From the NCBI GenBank assembly GCA_024281695.1, contig JAMXAE010000010.1, forward strand, positions 1 to 37,049: a DNA stretch of 37,049 nucleotides. Direction: 5' to 3'. The notes under the pieces were generated by a model, which was not told the origin of the DNA, made no database searches, and saw only the letters and a list, made by a program, of their open reading frames with translations. A program made the position numbers and the translations under genes. Shown here in pieces: positions 5,955 through 37,049 of the stretch (position 1 is the first letter of the stretch; each line of letters starts with the position of its first letter). This stretch comes from Nitrosomonas sp. (GTDB taxonomy: Bacteria; Pseudomonadota; Gammaproteobacteria; Burkholderiales; Nitrosomonadaceae).

Positions 5955-7663
5955 TTAGCAGGCTTGACTGGCACACACACAGTTGCGTCCCTGTTTTTTT
6001 GCACAATAAAGTTGCTGATCTGCCAGACAAATTAATTCATCAAGCGATACATGAATCTCGTTGGTATGCGCAACACCTAGGCTCGCGGTGAATGATAGTC
6101 TATCTCTATTTCCGGTCGTAAGCTGGATCGCCGTGATTTTTTTACGCAACCTGTCCGCGATGGCTATAGCATCTGCTAATTTGGTTTCTGGTAAGAAAAT
6201 AAGAAATTCCTCACCCCCCCAACGCGCCAGAATATCTCCGGTACGAGCTTCTTTTTGTAGCGTTCCTGCCAATTGAACCAGAACCCGATCTCCAAGGGCA
6301 TGGCCATAATTGTCATTAAATAATTTAAAATTGTCGATATCGACCATGATGATGGATGTATGGCTTTTGTTCCGTAAGCCTATCGACCAAATCGGCTTAA
6401 CAAATTTATAAAATGATCGTCGATTGTTCAAATTAGTTAGAGAATCAATACCCGCCATTTTCTCGGCAGCTAACTTTTCTGCCTGATTGATGTTGAACCG
6501 CTCAGCGAGTGCAAGTGCCAAGAAAATGGCATCGACCGTCATGCCGATATCAACCGCACGGTAAGTCAGTACGTTAAATGGAATGAACCCCCATACGGCA
6601 TTCGCAGTAACTATTCCGCCGCATACGGCAGAGACCGATGCTAGTAGGAAATATTTTGCGAATTTGTTACCGACCCGCAGCGATATGAAACCTAATGTGA
6701 TCATCACGCTCCAGAAAAACAGTATAAAAATAAATGATATGAGGAGTGCTATCGCAAAACTGCCGGATAATATTGTTATCTATAATAATGCGCTAAAACC
6801 GAAACAACTTCCGATAACCATGCGATGAATGCGAGGAAAGGTGTTTTGGATATTCAGAAAGCGTAGCGCGAAAATAAGTCCGCTAACAGAACAAGTGACG
6901 ATCAGAACGGGATTGGACCATTGTTGCCATCTAGGAGATTCAGGCCACAACCATTGATATCCGTGACCGGTATAAGAAATATTCAGTAACAAAAAGAATA
7001 TGAGATAAATGGAATAACAGAGATGGTGACTGCTCTTGAGTCCTATATAGAGCATCAGATTGTAAGCAATCAATGCAAGGATGACACCGTACAGCAGGCC
7101 ATAGCTATATCCCTGCAACATGTTTCTATCCATTACTTTCTCGGCACTCATAAAATAAATGGGCAGAATCATCGCATCGGCAGATTCTATTCGGATTAAA
7201 ACGGTGGTTTCACCATATACAAAACTATGACCTGTTACAAAGAACCGATGATTGAGAGGGCGCTCGGAGAATAACAGGCTGTCACCAACGTGGTAACTGT
7301 TGACTAACTGATTTGCTTGGAAAAATAGATATCCATTTTGTCCAGCCAAGCAGTTTCAATCAGAAGATTTCGGTAAGTAGTGTCACTCTCAGGATTCTTG
7401 ATCTGAAGCGCAAACCATACTGGTTTCGAGCCGTCGATACCAAGATTAATGACAGAATTATCTGATGAAGAAAAATACCCGTTCTTGAATGCTTCTAAAG
7501 CGCCGCTCATGCTTAATTGGGCATTATCGCTCTGGTAGATCTGAATATATTGGCCGATCGTTTCTTTATATTCTACAGAGGTATTCAGCGTTTCGGCACT
7601 TGCCAGTAAGCTCCAGAAAATCATCACGAGGATCGTAAGGGGTAATACAAGGAGATTCTTCAT
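5955..7663 (-). pseudogene. 7TM-DISM diguanylate cyclase gene, broken by a frameshift and an amber stop
   Basis: The three open pieces join into one receptor-type GGDEF protein. Piece 1 (7663-7304) has a signal peptide (residues 1-23, LASA) and the start of a 7TMR-DISMED2 sensory domain. Piece 2 (to 6780) completes the sensor and most of the seven-helix 7TMR-DISM block. Piece 3 (to 5955) holds the last helices and a GGDEF domain with active GGEEF and a correctly spaced inhibitory RxxD (RTGD). Pieces 1 and 2 are separated by a -1 shift at the A5 run 7321-7325 (T5 on the coding strand; T6 would restore YFFQANQ). Pieces 2 and 3 share a frame and are split only by TAG at 6780-6782, with sensible membrane sequence on both sides. 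An intact gene would make c-di-GMP at the inner membrane. Confidence 0.85.
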
Positions 7664-31136: not shown

Positions 31137-32336
31137 CTAATTGATACAGGAAGTATAGGCAGTTGGGCAGGTTGGATTCAGTCCACCCGATGGGGTACTC
31201 TTCTGCCCACTCCAGTTTAGCATCTCGAGGACTTTTTGATAATAATCTTGGTGCCTTGTCCAAAAGATATAATTGGCGTTTAGATTATCCCGTGCAAAAG
31301 TAAGTAGCTCTGAAACAGTTGGCTCGTAACCTGTCCCATCTTCCCGAGTATTTTCATAATTTTTCTGCATCACCGAAGGTGCGAGTGGCATAGTTCCAGA
31401 AAGCTTACGATAGTAACTGTAGATGCCATCTGGTGAGTAAGGATTACCTTCCGAGCTAAGACCAGGATCATCGAGACGAGTATCCGGACTACTCAGCGTT
31501 GTTCCCATTGCTTGAAGAGTGCCAACGAATGATTCAAGAATCGGACGTGGGTAATTTACTTCCTGGATTGTCATTGTATTAGGGAAGAAATCGCGCATAT
31601 TTTGGTGTACATTGAGCAAGTTGTCATAGAAACTAGTGACTTGGTCATTGGTTATTGGATTTATAGGTTGTCCTAAGGCGGTTTCTATCATGCCGATACC
31701 TTCAAAGTAAGGGTGAGAATTGTAGCGCTCTCCTAGTTTACGGAATAGTTTGACTAAACGGTTCCGGACGTTATCATTCCATAATTTGATGTTATACCCT
31801 TTAATGGTGTTGTCAGCGCCATAGCTACTAAAAGCAAATACACCGCCTTCATATATTCCCGCTTTCAGGTAGTCTGGTACGAGAGCCCAATCCGGGTCAA
31901 ATGATTTTGTTTGTACTTGGATAACAAGGCGTCTTTTTCGTGTAGCAAGCTCATTAAGATGTTTATCAATGGCTGAGAAATCATATATGTTTTCTGCTGT
32001 TTCCAATTCGGCCCACAAAAAACGAATTTGTAATCCTCTTAATGCTGGTGTTGACTTGAGCTCGCTATAAACTTTGTCCATATATGCAGATTTATTTTTA
32101 CCCGCACTCATGAGGGTATAGTAATGGCCAGGATGCCATTTAACTGCACCCGCATATGCTTCTTTCACGGGAGCTAACATCATGCTGATGACGAATACTA
32201 ACGCCATTAACAGGGTACTGGTATAGATATAAAACTTTGCAATATTGCTTGCATTAGTTCTGTTTTTTTGTAAGGCCTTGGCATTGCTCAATGTTAATGA
32301 ATTGTGAATTAATAATACTTGATTACTGGTGTTCAT
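31137..32336 (-). CDS. Secreted TIM-barrel (glycoside-hydrolase-like) protein, copy 1
   Basis: 399 residues. A hydrophobic stretch (about 38-54) ending EAYA|GAVKW is a long signal peptide. The mature part begins KWHPGHYYTLMS and has GH-like TIM-barrel features: GLQIRFLWAELETAENIYDF (the strand-2 pattern of GH5/GH42-type enzymes), RLVIQVQTKSF, FEGIGMIETAL with Glu218, TMTIQEVNYPRP with Glu259, and NYIFWTRH with an aromatic at strand 8. Glu218 and Glu259 are candidate acid/base and nucleophile. Two Cys at the C-terminus (390, 397) may form a disulfide. The ATG at 32336 follows AAGGAGGA; a longer frame upstream is leader. Controlled by the riboswitch described separately. The substrate is unknown; own EPS is a reasonable guess. 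Confidence 0.75.
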   Translation of the reverse strand: MNTSNQVLLIHNSLTLSNAKALQKNRTNASNIAKFYIYTSTLLMALVFVISMMLAPVKEAYAGAVKWHPGHYYTLMSAGKNKSAYMDKVYSELKSTPALRGLQIRFLWAELETAENIYDFSAIDKHLNELATRKRRLVIQVQTKSFDPDWALVPDYLKAGIYEGGVFAFSSYGADNTIKGYNIKLWNDNVRNRLVKLFRKLGERYNSHPYFEGIGMIETALGQPINPITNDQVTSFYDNLLNVHQNMRDFFPNTMTIQEVNYPRPILESFVGTLQAMGTTLSSPDTRLDDPGLSSEGNPYSPDGIYSYYRKLSGTMPLAPSVMQKNYENTREDGTGYEPTVSELLTFARDNLNANYIFWTRHQDYYQKVLEMLNWSGQKSTPSGGLNPTCPTAYTSCIN

Positions 32337-32346
32337 TTTCGATTCC

Positions 32347-32364
32347 TCCTTATAATTAAAAGGA
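32347..32364 (-). promoter_or_regulatory. Shine-Dalgarno-sequestering hairpin in the leader of copy 1
   Basis: On the minus strand TCCTT pairs with AAGGA across an eight-base loop, burying the AAGGAGG Shine-Dalgarno of the GH-like gene. The same pairing with a different loop occurs before copy 2 (35404-35420). It is a candidate expression platform for the upstream riboswitch, acting on translation. Confidence 0.5.
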
Positions 32365-32449
32365 CGGAACTGCATGGATACGCGCCGAAGCTGCTTTACT
32401 CGATTCTTACCAAGTCATCATCATGCATGTGACAGAGAGACGAGTGGCG

Positions 32450-32545
32450 TTATCTGGCAGTCCTGCCATCTTGGGGCACACTTGCCCTTTAGATCAGTGA
32501 CTTTGCGTCCCCTGCTTTCACAGGGTTTGCCTTTTTCATACTGCA
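32450..32545 (-). ncRNA. Cyclic di-GMP-I (GEMM-I) riboswitch
   Basis: Read on the minus strand, the core is GGCAAACC-CTGT-GAAA-GCAG-GGGACGCAAAG-TCACTGATCTAA, which matches the c-di-GMP-I aptamer (as in Vc2 of Vibrio cholerae) through the GNRA-capped hairpin and the invariant GGGACGCAAAG strand. It continues with a GGGC/GCCC hairpin and ATGGCAG-GA-CTGCCA, corresponding to the remaining helices and the typical 3' end. The aptamer starts about where the sigma-54-type promoter should initiate and lies about 115 bp ahead of GH-like protein 1, so that gene should respond to c-di-GMP. No intrinsic terminator follows; translational control is more likely. Confidence 0.88.
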
Positions 32546-32555
32546 ATACTTATTA

Positions 32556-32571
32556 AGCATAAATTATGCCA
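32556..32571 (-). promoter_or_regulatory. Sigma-54-type -24/-12 promoter
   Basis: On the minus strand TGGCATAATTTATGCT matches the RpoN consensus TGGCACG-N4-TTGCW with the strict GG-N10-GC spacing (GG at 32570-32569, GC at 32558-32557). Initiation about 12 bases downstream would be near 32545, at the 5' edge of the riboswitch, which supports both calls. Confidence 0.7.
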
Positions 32572-32837
32572 ACTTCATTGAGAGCCCTTTGCAGCTCTTT
32601 GTTCTTAAGATTCTGGCTGCAAAACACTATCGTTTTCTGAGTGGTGGATATGTTTTAGCTGTTTCTAATGAAGAAAAATATGAGAATGGTGATTTATCAT
32701 TGCCATTTCCTGTTTATATGAATCGCAAGTGAGTAGCGAATGGTGTATCGATAGCAGTGAAGATCGTTTGCATGCTGGAGACCCTGTCTGGGGCGTCTGG
32801 CTGAGCAGTCCAGGATATTTTCTAGGAAATGTGTGAT

Positions 32838-34231: not shown

Positions 34232-35392
34232 CTAGTCATTACAAGAAGTATAGGTCTTAGGGCAAGCTGAATTCAAACCGCCTGACGAGGTGCCTTTTTG
34301 CGTATTCCCATTTAGCATTTCCAGAATTTTGCTACGGTAATAATATTCTGGGTGTCGTGTCCAGAAGATGTAATTGGCTTTCAGTTTATCCCGTGCAAAA
34401 GCTAAGAGCTCGAGGATGGTAGGTTCATAGCCTGTTCCATCTTCTCGGGTATTCTCATAATTTGTTTCCATCACGGTAGGTGCCATCGGGATATAACCAG
34501 AAAGTTTAGAGTAATAACTATAGACGCCATCTGGTGAATAAGGATTGCCTTCCATACTGAGACCAGGATCGTCGAGACGAAGATCGGGGCTACTCAGTGT
34601 TGTTCCCATATTTGGGAAAGAATTTATGACTGATTCAAGTACGGGACGTGGATAATTCATTTCCTGGATGGTCATGGTGTTGGGGAAGAAAGCACGCATA
34701 TTCTTGTGTACATAAATTAAGTTGTCAAAAAATTTAGTTACTTGATCACTAGTCATCGGTGCATCCGTAGGGTCCCCTAAGGCTGATTCAATCATACCGA
34801 TACCTTCAAAATAGGGATGAGAGTTATAGCGCTCTCCCAGCTTGCGGAATAGTTTAACTAAACGATTTCGGACATTATCGTTCCATAACTTGATGTTGTA
34901 TCCTCTAGGGATGGTATTCCCTAATTTACTGAAGGGGAAAACACCTCCCTCATATTTTGACGCTTTTAGGTAGACGGGTACTAGAGTCCAATCAAGATCA
35001 AACGATTTGGTTTGTACCTGAATAATAAGACGCTTCTGCTGTGCAGCCAGCTCCTCAAGGCGTTGATCAATGGCCGTGAAGTCATATACATCTTCATCCG
35101 TTTCCAGTTCTGCCCACAAATAACGAATCTGTAGTCCACGAAGTGCTGGCGTTGCCTTGAGCTCTCTATGCACCTTATCCATATATTCAGATTTATTTTT
35201 GCCCGAGCTCATGATGGTATAGTAATGCCCGGGATGCCATTTAACCGCACCTGCATGAGCTACTTTCGTGGGAGCTAGTACTGAGTTGATACCGAAGAAT
35301 ATTAATGCCATTAACAAAGTATTGGTATAGACAAATTTTATACTGCAATCTGCGTAAGTTTTATTTATTTGTAACGATTTCGTAGTATTCAT
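34232..35392 (-). CDS. Secreted TIM-barrel (glycoside-hydrolase-like) protein, copy 2
   Basis: 386 residues, a close paralog of copy 1 over its whole length: signal peptide ending VAHA|GAVKW (about residue 47), KWHPGHYYTIMSSGKNKSEY, RYLWAELETDEDVYDF, FEGIGMIESAL with Glu202, TIQEMNYPRPV with Glu244, NYIFWTRH and a C-terminal Cys pair. Both candidate catalytic glutamates are kept, so it should be active if copy 1 is. The ATG at 35392 follows AAGGAAG; the longer frame is leader. Its leader near the start is homologous to that of copy 1, including the Shine-Dalgarno hairpin, but no c-di-GMP aptamer is seen. Confidence 0.75.
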   Translation of the reverse strand: MNTTKSLQINKTYADCSIKFVYTNTLLMALIFFGINSVLAPTKVAHAGAVKWHPGHYYTIMSSGKNKSEYMDKVHRELKATPALRGLQIRYLWAELETDEDVYDFTAIDQRLEELAAQQKRLIIQVQTKSFDLDWTLVPVYLKASKYEGGVFPFSKLGNTIPRGYNIKLWNDNVRNRLVKLFRKLGERYNSHPYFEGIGMIESALGDPTDAPMTSDQVTKFFDNLIYVHKNMRAFFPNTMTIQEMNYPRPVLESVINSFPNMGTTLSSPDLRLDDPGLSMEGNPYSPDGVYSYYSKLSGYIPMAPTVMETNYENTREDGTGYEPTILELLAFARDKLKANYIFWTRHPEYYYRSKILEMLNGNTQKGTSSGGLNSACPKTYTSCND

Positions 35393-35403
35393 TTTCAATT
35401 TCT

Positions 35404-35420
35404 TCCTTGTCGTTAAAGGA
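35404..35420 (-). promoter_or_regulatory. Shine-Dalgarno-sequestering hairpin in the leader of copy 2
   Basis: TCCTT-TAACGAC-AAGGA on the minus strand: the same five-base stem as before copy 1 but with a different loop, enclosing the AAGGA Shine-Dalgarno. Keeping the stem while the loop changes suggests it has a function. Confidence 0.45.
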
Positions 35421-35498
35421 CAGAAACGCATTGACACGTATCGAAGTTATTCCTTAAAAGAATAATCTTGTGTCATCCTGGTTCTAAATATTAGCGGG

Positions 35499-35524
35499 AG
35501 GACATGCTTTGAGCAGCATGTCCT
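35499..35524. terminator. Stem-loop after GH-like copy 3
   Basis: AGGACATGCT and AGCATGTCCT, a perfect ten-base stem with a six-base loop, 28 bp beyond the stop of copy 3. T-tract (CCTTTTTCCC) follows on the plus strand only, so on the minus strand it would be a Rho-type or processing stem. Confidence 0.55.
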
Positions 35525-35551
35525 TTTTCCCTTTAGCTGTTTGTGAAGTCT

Positions 35552-36700
35552 CTAGTTACAAGAGGTATAAACTGATGGGCAGGTCGGATCGAGTCCGCCA
35601 GAAGGGTCGCTTGTTTGTGCGCGTTGATTCAGCAGTTCCAGCACTTTCGGATAATAGCCCGGCGTCCGTGTCCAGAAAATATAATTGGCTTTCAACGTAT
35701 CTCGTCCAAATTTTAGAAGCTCTGAAACAGTCGGTTGGGGGCCTGTTAGGTCTTTCCGAGTACTTACATAATTCTTGTGCTCTATTGTAGGGGTCAGAGC
35801 TATAATTCCGGAAAGCTTAGGAAAGTAAGTATACAGACCGGCCGGATCACGTGTTTCGTTTAGGCCAGGCTCGTCTATCCAAATATCCGGACAACCCAAT
35901 GTCGTGCCGGTCTCTTTGAATGTATTTGTGAATTCTTTAAGAAATGTGCGTGGGTAATTCATTTCTTGAATGGTCATCGTATTAGGAAAAGCGGTACGCA
36001 TTTTCGTTTGTACAATGAGCAGATTTGCATAATATTTATCTACTTGTGTGCTTGTCAATGCTGTTATAGGTTGTCCAAAGGCCGATTCAATCATACCGAC
36101 ACCCTCAAAATAGGGATGTGAATTATATCGCTCGCCTAATTTGTTCATCAGTTTAGTTAGACGATTCCGGACGTTATCATTCCATAATTTAATGTTATAT
36201 CCCTTAATGGTTTTTTTACTGTCATAGCTACCAAAAGGAAATACGCCTCCTTCATACATGGATGTTCTTAAGTAGCCTGGTACAACAGTCCAGTCAGGAT
36301 CAAATGACTTTGTTTGCACCTGAATGATGAGGCGTCTTTTTAGTGCAGCAAGTTCTTCAAGACGCTGATCAATGGCTGTGAAATCATACACATCCTCATC
36401 TGTTTCCAATTCTTTCCAGAAATAACGGATTTGTACTCCACGGAGTGCCGGTGTCGCCTTAAGCTCACTGTACACATCATCCAGATATCTAGGATTGTCT
36501 TTACCTGAACTCATAAGGGTGTAGTAATGGCCTGGATGCCATTTTACTGAGTCGTTTACAACAGAGGTTGCAGCATATATCGCTCCCCATGGAGTCAGAA
36601 CGGTGCCTATGATAAGTAGTACTGTAGTTAATACACCATGTCTAGTCAAAGTCGAGAAACAACTGTTGATTCTGGATTTTATGGTATTGGTAATTTTCAT
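35552..36700 (-). CDS. Secreted TIM-barrel (glycoside-hydrolase-like) protein, copy 3
   Basis: 382 residues, more diverged than copies 1 and 2 are from each other. Signal peptide with hydrophobic core at about 22-37 and cleavage near AIYA|ATS. Conserved core: SVKWHPGHYYTLMSSGKDN, IRYFWKELETDEDVYDF, FEGVGMIESAF with Glu205, TIQEMNYPRTF with Glu246, NYIFWTRT and terminal Cys pair. The loop DIWIDEPGLNETRDPAG replaces the RLDDPGLS-EGNPYSPDG of the other two, hinting at altered substrate contact. The ATG at 36700 follows AAAGGA within a short AAAAG/CTTTT hairpin; the upstream in-frame start is disfavoured. About 160 bp from copy 2, possibly one transcript. Confidence 0.75.
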   Translation of the reverse strand: MKITNTIKSRINSCFSTLTRHGVLTTVLLIIGTVLTPWGAIYAATSVVNDSVKWHPGHYYTLMSSGKDNPRYLDDVYSELKATPALRGVQIRYFWKELETDEDVYDFTAIDQRLEELAALKRRLIIQVQTKSFDPDWTVVPGYLRTSMYEGGVFPFGSYDSKKTIKGYNIKLWNDNVRNRLTKLMNKLGERYNSHPYFEGVGMIESAFGQPITALTSTQVDKYYANLLIVQTKMRTAFPNTMTIQEMNYPRTFLKEFTNTFKETGTTLGCPDIWIDEPGLNETRDPAGLYTYFPKLSGIIALTPTIEHKNYVSTRKDLTGPQPTVSELLKFGRDTLKANYIFWTRTPGYYPKVLELLNQRAQTSDPSGGLDPTCPSVYTSCN

Positions 36701-37049
36701 ATAAAAGATTCCTTTTAAGATAAGTTTCATGCTATCAATTTTCTGTTAGAAGCAATCAATGAGCTGTCTTCTAAGAATACGTATCTTTTTATTTGCAAAA
36801 AAGACTCCGCTTATTGATTCGGCATGAAGTATGAATTCCACTCGCGCTTATTTTTTGATAAGTTAAATAGGAATAAACTCCAAACGATATCTCGCCGAAT
36901 TAGTAGTAGTATTACTTACTTCGAGGATTTTAAAACGGCAAAAACAATGGTAAAAATAGACTCTTTAAATAAGAGCCTTAGGAAGTTAAGCAGACTATTA
37001 AAGTAGTGTAACTTCCTAATATGACAATATCGCTAAAGATGAGTTGTAG
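36701..37049. other. Leader region of GH-like copy 3, right edge of window
   Basis: AT-rich. On the minus strand CGGAGTCTTTTTTGCA (36809-36794) has the GG-N10-GC spacing and a perfect TTGCA -12 element but a poor -24 surround, so it is only a weak sigma-54 candidate. No c-di-GMP aptamer is seen. A 60-codon plus-strand frame (36824-37006) has no Shine-Dalgarno and is not annotated. Confidence 0.3.

Follow-up and report, generated by a model that had tools for sequence, protein, structure and literature searches.

The leader described here lies at 32571-32334 on the minus strand of the window, by which we mean the whole 37,049-nt stretch of Nitrosomonas sp. DNA that was analysed. In the direction of transcription it consists of TGGCATAATTTATGC, a c-di-GMP-I aptamer, a linker of ~80 nt, a hairpin over the Shine–Dalgarno sequence (SD) and the ATG of a glycoside hydrolase (GH)-like gene (Table 1). 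If the final C of the motif is taken as −12, transcription is predicted to start at ~32545, 4 nt ahead of the aptamer model. The composite leader is real and conserved; its parts are known, and the series that they form is unusual. Three paralogous genes stand in a row, two of them upstream of the leader gene (34232-36730, minus strand), and paralogue matches were found in 24 genus genomes, with up to 14 in each. The aptamer and the sigma-54 motif are absent from the 349 nt available upstream of the 35552..36700 paralogue, and a scan of eight loci ahead of aptamer-less paralogues revealed no decayed aptamers. The leader gene lies near sulfotransferase and UDP-sugar dehydrogenase genes, in agreement with the exopolysaccharide (EPS) locus of the original prediction. 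Elsewhere in this genome, another EPS-type locus (L199:1933-10734, G000:C49) carries an exosortase (PF09721) and, by eye, a sulfotransferase-like gene. At 5955-6707 (minus strand), the window also encodes a diguanylate cyclase whose GGDEF match scores 158.7 bits and whose membrane portion is of the 7TMR-DISM type.

Table 1. Features of the leader, its gene and the paralogues, in window coordinates.
Feature	Position	Strand	Remark
Sigma-54-type promoter element TGGCATAATTTATGC (GG-N10-GC)	32557..32571	-	Conserved place in genus aptamer leaders
c-di-GMP-I (GEMM-I) aptamer	32453..32541	-	RF01051 match, cmscan
Aptamer 3' strand GGACUGC	32457..32463	-	Can pair with 32373-32367
Linker helix P4, 5' strand GAUAACGC	32447..32454	-	
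Linker helix P4, 3' strand GCGUAUC	32377..32383	-	
Switching segment GCAGUUC	32367..32373	-	Partner is the aptamer strand, or the SD side via GUUC
SD-sequestering hairpin GUUCCGUCCUU / AAGGAGGAAU	32342..32370	-	
Shine–Dalgarno AAGGAGG	32345..32351	-	Read from sequence
ATG start codon	32336-32334	-	
Probably secreted TIM-barrel glycoside-hydrolase-like protein, 399 aa	31137..32336	-	Secretion from the N-terminus, by eye
Paralogue, 73% identical	34232..35392	-	Without aptamer
Paralogue, 63% identical (genome search), 60% (alignment A2)	35552..36700	-	

The 399-aa product was modelled as a TIM barrel (pLDDT 89.5, pTM 0.82). Foldseek returned GH14, GH35 and GH42 enzymes at E-values of 1e-9 to 1e-7 and TM-scores to the query of 0.4-0.5; the best matches were beta-amylases and GH35/GH42 beta-galactosidases, and identities in the best 50 rows were 8-14%. 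A profile of 51 family members reached GH35 entries (E 8e-5 over 87 residues), and the scores stayed below the curated GH42 and GH35 cut-offs (PF02449, 17 vs. 21 bits; NF051902, 17.7 vs. 500). Clan-A-like TIM-barrel glycosidases have two catalytic glutamates, located after strands 4 and 7. Counting the strands, we place E218, which all 51 sequences share, after strand 4, and the sole nearly invariant acid after strand 7 is D333. Since all family scores fall short of their cut-offs and there is no clear candidate for the second catalytic acid, glycosidase activity is something we infer. Nevertheless, the model, the glycosidase fold matches and the GH35 profile match bear out the GH-like product originally claimed, as a probable TIM-barrel protein of this kind.

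The cmscan search placed an RF01051 match at 32541-32453 (minus strand) with 82 bits against a gathering cut-off of 35 (E 7.5e-15, model positions 1-87 of 87). This full-length match upholds the GEMM-I aptamer of the original prediction, which had named an RF01051 search as its check. At the gathering cut-off it was the single cmscan match in the whole window, and the genome search (3.0-Mb draft, 89.7% complete, 6.7% contaminated) yielded no second RF01051 match. Across 61 Nitrosomonas genomes we counted 104 RF01051 matches, with at least one in 53 genomes. The aptamers examined were 74 of these 104; the remaining 30 scored at most 56.8 bits, save one (69.1 bits) at a contig end. Alignment A1 comprised 36 of the 44 leaders with at least 74 bits, leaving out four first-of-tandem leaders, two preceding other genes and two without an ORF. 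A P1 helix formed from the transcript 5′ end was rejected (mean −2.42 kcal/mol vs. −2.44 in shuffled letters); this leader, having no P1 above shuffled letters, resembles Cd1, whose lack of P1 is discussed in PMC9262584.

The sigma-54-type motif lies 15 nt upstream of the aptamer. For the genus comparison, the 70 nt ahead of each of the 74 aptamers were scored against a sigma-54 consensus, with a GG-N10-GC site of at least 8 of 10 required. The motif was present in 30 of the 74 leaders and in 25 of the 61 genomes (hereafter the cassette genomes). Its distance to the aptamer was 15 nt in 15 leaders and 16 nt in seven, fell between 13 and 18 nt in 28 of the 30 and was 24 nt in the other two. By downstream gene, it preceded 17 of 29 GH-family genes (four of the 29 leaders stand first in a tandem pair and lack the motif), 11 of 11 genes of the family labelled LLFKSN and 2 of 34 of the rest, whereas shuffled upstream regions gave means of 0.07, 0.04 and 0.02, respectively. 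Of the two motif leaders among the rest, one is followed by masked sequence and the other has no called ORF. The motif precedes two unrelated secreted families, one TIM-barrel glycosidase-like and one polysaccharide-lyase-like; one of two LLFKSN proteins scanned matches the polysaccharide lyase family PF14099, below cut-off (22.7 vs. 29.9).

Among 80 distinct GH-family gene starts (picked by script, some wrongly, as in L028; two with <420 nt upstream; aptamers counted only where GG[AG]CGCAAAG occurs), 17 had both aptamer and motif, eight the aptamer only, 55 neither and none the motif only, so that the motif preceded 0 of 55 aptamer-less genes. This split indicates that promoter and riboswitch travel together. 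The eight aptamer-bearing GH genes without a clean motif count against the gating mechanism proposed below; they comprise four second leaders of tandem clusters, three that are alike (G059, G039, G024:C7) and the G006 leader, whose otherwise similar motif is one base longer. In the window alone, TGGCAY-N6-TGC has two matches where 0.76 would be expected, and as many turn up in 16 of 100 shuffles, so by count the motif is not significant. The sigma-54 promoter of the original prediction is instead supported by its conserved position in relatives, at a matching place in 30 of the 74 genus aptamer leaders.

The gene for the sigma factor, rpoN, is located on C191 in this genome and is present in 59 of the 61 genus genomes, this one included. 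A PF00158 search of the genome found two complete sigma-54 activators (C19 and C51) and a partial third (C112, 45.6 bits); all remaining matches were at or below 28 bits. The neighbours of the C19 activator read as FliJ, FliI, FliH, FliG, FliF, a histidine kinase and FliE, and we take the activator itself to be FlrC-like; the C51 activator adjoins a PilS-like kinase and is presumably PilR-like. Both stay below the NCBIfam equivalog cut-offs. All 25 cassette genomes encode the FlrC-like protein, as do 27 of the 36 other genus genomes; PrsR above the TIGR02915 cut-off is found in none of the 25 and in 21 of the 36 (Fisher's test, p = 0.008 and p = 7e-7, respectively; leaders and genomes are related, so these tests, like the swaps and shuffles used here, overstate independence). 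PrsR, the activator suggested originally, is therefore unlikely to serve the cassette, and we rejected it despite the exosortase and EPS genes on C49: the best match in this genome reaches 363.3 bits against a cut-off of 502.6, and the other 24 cassette genomes likewise have no match above it. The partial C112 activator was also rejected, as its relatives, found in 14 of 37 genus genomes searched, do not track the cassette. The FlrC-like and PilR-like proteins remain candidate activators. A search for an upstream activator site common to the 30 leaders gave only short A/T-rich words, common to at most 11 of 30, which counts against the proposed gate.

The SD hairpin, GUUCCgUCCUU/AAGGAGGAAU, has 10 pairs (32370-32342) and a predicted energy of −10.6 kcal/mol (z −2.62; equalled or bettered in 2 of 200 shuffles). 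The SD-hiding hairpin claimed originally is thus present, longer than the TCCTT/AAGGA stem then described and supported by compensatory changes. Without hints, RNAalifold folds the aptamer and the SD hairpin from the 36 leaders. In these leaders 97.2% of hairpin cells are paired, compared with 44-69% when the partner is slid, and two pairs show both-sided changes (C-G, U-G, U-A); 44 of 500 shuffles reach two such pairs, and 1 of 500 reaches the covariation score. In L018, L074 and L072 the SD itself has changed along with its partner. Ahead of the 34232-35392 paralogue, where the aptamer is absent, a similar 3′ hairpin, UUUCUGUCCUU/AAGGAAGAAA, was seen by eye.

The segment GCAGUUC overlaps GUUC of the SD hairpin, and therefore its pairing with the aptamer strand GGACUGC and the closing of the hairpin partly exclude each other. 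Across the 36 leaders, the alternative helix GGACUGC/GCAGUUC is 99.6% paired with one both-sided change; it hardly varies, and its covariation comes from one leader, G006, which we count against the gate. P4 (GAUAACGC/GCGUAUC) is 89.5% paired and has two pairs with both-sided changes. Jointly, the two helices are 94.6% paired, compared with 25-45% in slid versions. They have three both-sided pairs against one or two when slid (two in five of six versions), four both-sided cells against up to six, and a score of 0.072 against 0.072 at slide −2; the joint covariation is barely above the slid controls, which also counts against the gate. P4 averages −7.09 kcal/mol within leaders and −6.01 (sd 0.21) when partners are swapped between leaders, with 0 of 200 swaps as low. 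In the four first-of-tandem leaders, GGACCGCC or GGGCCGCC stands opposite GCAGTTC and breaks one pair of the alternative helix, a further point against the gate. The evidence for the GGACUGC/GCAGUUC pairing is modest.

Computed folds of the 36 leaders gave a mean SD unpaired probability of 0.03 when the aptamer was forced, 0.21 when the alternative helix was, and 0.05 when no constraint was set; the mean energies were −55.8, −54.6 and −57.1 kcal/mol, respectively. These predicted values favour an OFF switch, short of proof. The SD opens only partially with the alternative forced, and five of the 36 leaders stay at or below 0.04, which is counted against the gate. An intrinsic terminator in the leader was rejected, the scan giving two sites, both on the plus strand.

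We propose a two-step gate, to which we give a somewhat better than even chance: an activator-dependent promoter followed by a translational OFF switch operated by c-di-GMP. Sigma-54 RNA polymerase would start at ~32545 only once an enhancer-binding protein fires, here a candidate flagellar FlrC-like or PilR-like protein, and the transcript would run straight into the class-I c-di-GMP aptamer. With c-di-GMP abundant, the aptamer would hold GGACUGC, leaving GCAGUUCCGUCCUU free to close over AAGGAGGAA and keeping translation OFF. With c-di-GMP scarce, GGACUGC would instead pair with GCAGUUC and lengthen helix P4; the SD hairpin would open at its outer pairs, and the glycosidase-like protein could be made. 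The elements, their order, their conservation and the hairpin covariation can be read from the DNA itself; the identity of the activator and the direction of the switch, as well as the activity, secretion and matrix-loosening role of the enzyme, are what we infer. Double gating of the gene by an activator and c-di-GMP appears likely because the aptamer class, the conserved promoter position, the SD hairpin and the GH-like product are all supported. With regard to the original proposal of such gating, the elements of both gates stood, and PrsR as the activator did not.

The same cassette might work with the opposite sign, c-di-GMP turning translation ON and the enzyme remodelling the matrix during biofilm building. 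The gene adjoins the sulfotransferase and UDP-sugar dehydrogenase genes, another genus aptamer stands ahead of a PEP-CTERM protein, the two forced folds are close in predicted mean energy, and ON-acting class I switches exist, with pilM as an example in PMC9262584. However, the computed SD is shut with the aptamer forced and somewhat open with the alternative forced, and the aptamer can be invaded by the very segment that closes over the SD; we judge the ON sign unlikely. It is improbable, in our estimate, that the SD hairpin is a stand-alone brake, answering to an RNA-binding protein, a small RNA or temperature and uncoupled from the aptamer. Such a brake would fit the similar 3′ hairpins seen by eye in aptamer-less paralogues (window 34232-35392; L062, L127, L128, L132), the lack of decayed aptamers in the eight relative loci and the slight covariation of the coupling helix. 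Against it, the triplet GCA that flanks the hairpin shows a conservation of at least 90% and supplies the rest of the complement to GGACUGC, and P4 pairs better within leaders than between them.

There seems to be little chance that the sigma-54-like motif is idle, with another promoter driving the gene and the riboswitch acting alone. By count, the window holds no more copies of the motif than chance allows, and protease leaders, like some others, carry aptamers with no such motif; nevertheless, 28 leaders of the GH and LLFKSN families, and two unclassified ones, have it 13-24 nt ahead of the aptamer, against an expectation of fewer than 0.1 per class, and a consensus scan of 32250-32800 finds no sigma-70-like site. 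Ligand type was judged from the residue just before P2, which is G (32531; model position 11) in this leader and in 36 of 36 aligned leaders; we take this residue (G20 in Vc2) to set ligand choice. By our mapping of the J1/2 description in PMC6274999 onto the Rfam/cmscan structure line, the junction G reads as the c-di-GMP-type base and not the A of the cAMP-GMP type; in that paper, the last J1/2 residue of a cGAMP riboswitch, A14, sits directly 5′ of P2, and a G20A mutant is mentioned. Geobacter GEMM-I riboswitches reportedly sense cAMP-GMP, but with G at this position in all 36 leaders a cAMP-GMP ligand is hardly credible here and was rejected.

The proposed two-step gate can be set beside systems already described. 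The aptamer resembles Vc2 and Cd1 (RF01051) in its full-length match well above the cut-off and in the retained junction G, and Vc2 is described as a translational OFF switch (PMC9262584). Unlike the RF01051 examples, the leader described here has a predicted start ~4 nt ahead of the aptamer and a sigma-54-type promoter directly upstream, a comparison that does not extend to the Vc2 and Cd1 promoters. According to PMC6200980, C. difficile class I riboswitches are OFF switches in reporter tests and one of them lies ahead of the metalloprotease gene zmpI; one class I gene is up with c-di-GMP in RNA-seq, which we count against an OFF gate. The present leader is similar to that of zmpI, whose expression falls with c-di-GMP according to that paper, in having a class I aptamer ahead of a degradative enzyme. 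It differs in that zmpI is from another phylum and encodes a protease. PslG of Pseudomonas aeruginosa is a hydrolase that disrupts the exopolysaccharide matrix, as stated in PMC7237758; its structure (PDB 5bx9) was Foldseek rank 24 for our product (E 3.6e-8, TM 0.45 to query), and beta-amylases and GH35/GH42 enzymes match better.

Among open-licence PubMed Central papers, no title reported a c-di-GMP riboswitch in Nitrosomonas, and the c-di-GMP text in the available part of PMC10781756 concerns Comamonas. Likewise, no title in that collection paired sigma-54/RpoN with a riboswitch; the Geobacter papers PMC13194489 and PMC10599522 mention the two separately in the portions available. Class I switches and OFF switches are already known, and their placement in series with a conserved sigma-54-type promoter is unusual. 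One transcript would thereby multiply an activator input by a c-di-GMP input, and the 36 leaders offer a natural series for studying a riboswitch with a predicted transcription start at its edge.

Nitrosomonas lives in flocs and biofilms. The cassette is kept in many related genomes and may control when cells loosen their slime; the leader names candidate enzymes and a signal for how Nitrosomonas cells might leave flocs or biofilms. We tentatively put forward, as a possibility short of an even chance, a dispersal module in which a motility-linked sigma-54 activator and low c-di-GMP, acting in series, would release secreted glycan-cutting enzymes. Elsewhere in the genus, aptamers of this class also stand ahead of subtilases and of an RTX/M10-type protein. 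If true, this would be a dispersal module in ammonia oxidisers whose RNA part is duplicated around a six-codon frame in four Nitrosomonas genomes.

In those four genomes (G007, G060, G033 and G030; L066:4150-4594, L069:4112-4553, L067:2670-3115 on the minus strand and L065:1922-2367, respectively), two complete c-di-GMP-I aptamers ~240 nt apart precede one GH gene, and the six-codon open frame between them has its own SD hairpin. Genes that follow promoter-less aptamers in the genus encode, among others, subtilases, the RTX/M10-type protein and a PEP-CTERM protein. A second leader family belongs to subtilase-like genes of eight genomes (L093, L084, L090, L094, L096, L097, L099, L101); subtilase identity was checked in one protein, L093 (PF00082). 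In these leaders UCGGC could pair with either the aptamer end GCCGA or the SD flank AGCCG; of the six scored for this pairing, four surpassed shuffled letters and two did not. Several pairing partners seem to change together in the G045 leader. The subtilase-like leaders may therefore embody the same switching logic in another sequence, which we offer only as a lead. At L102:2786-3619 (G050), the PEP-CTERM protein behind a c-di-GMP-I aptamer has a sub-threshold CorA-like copper-binding match. At L088:2891-5032 (G056), an aptamer-led protein scores 44.6 bits for the hydrazine synthase alpha middle domain (PF18582, cut-off 26.6).
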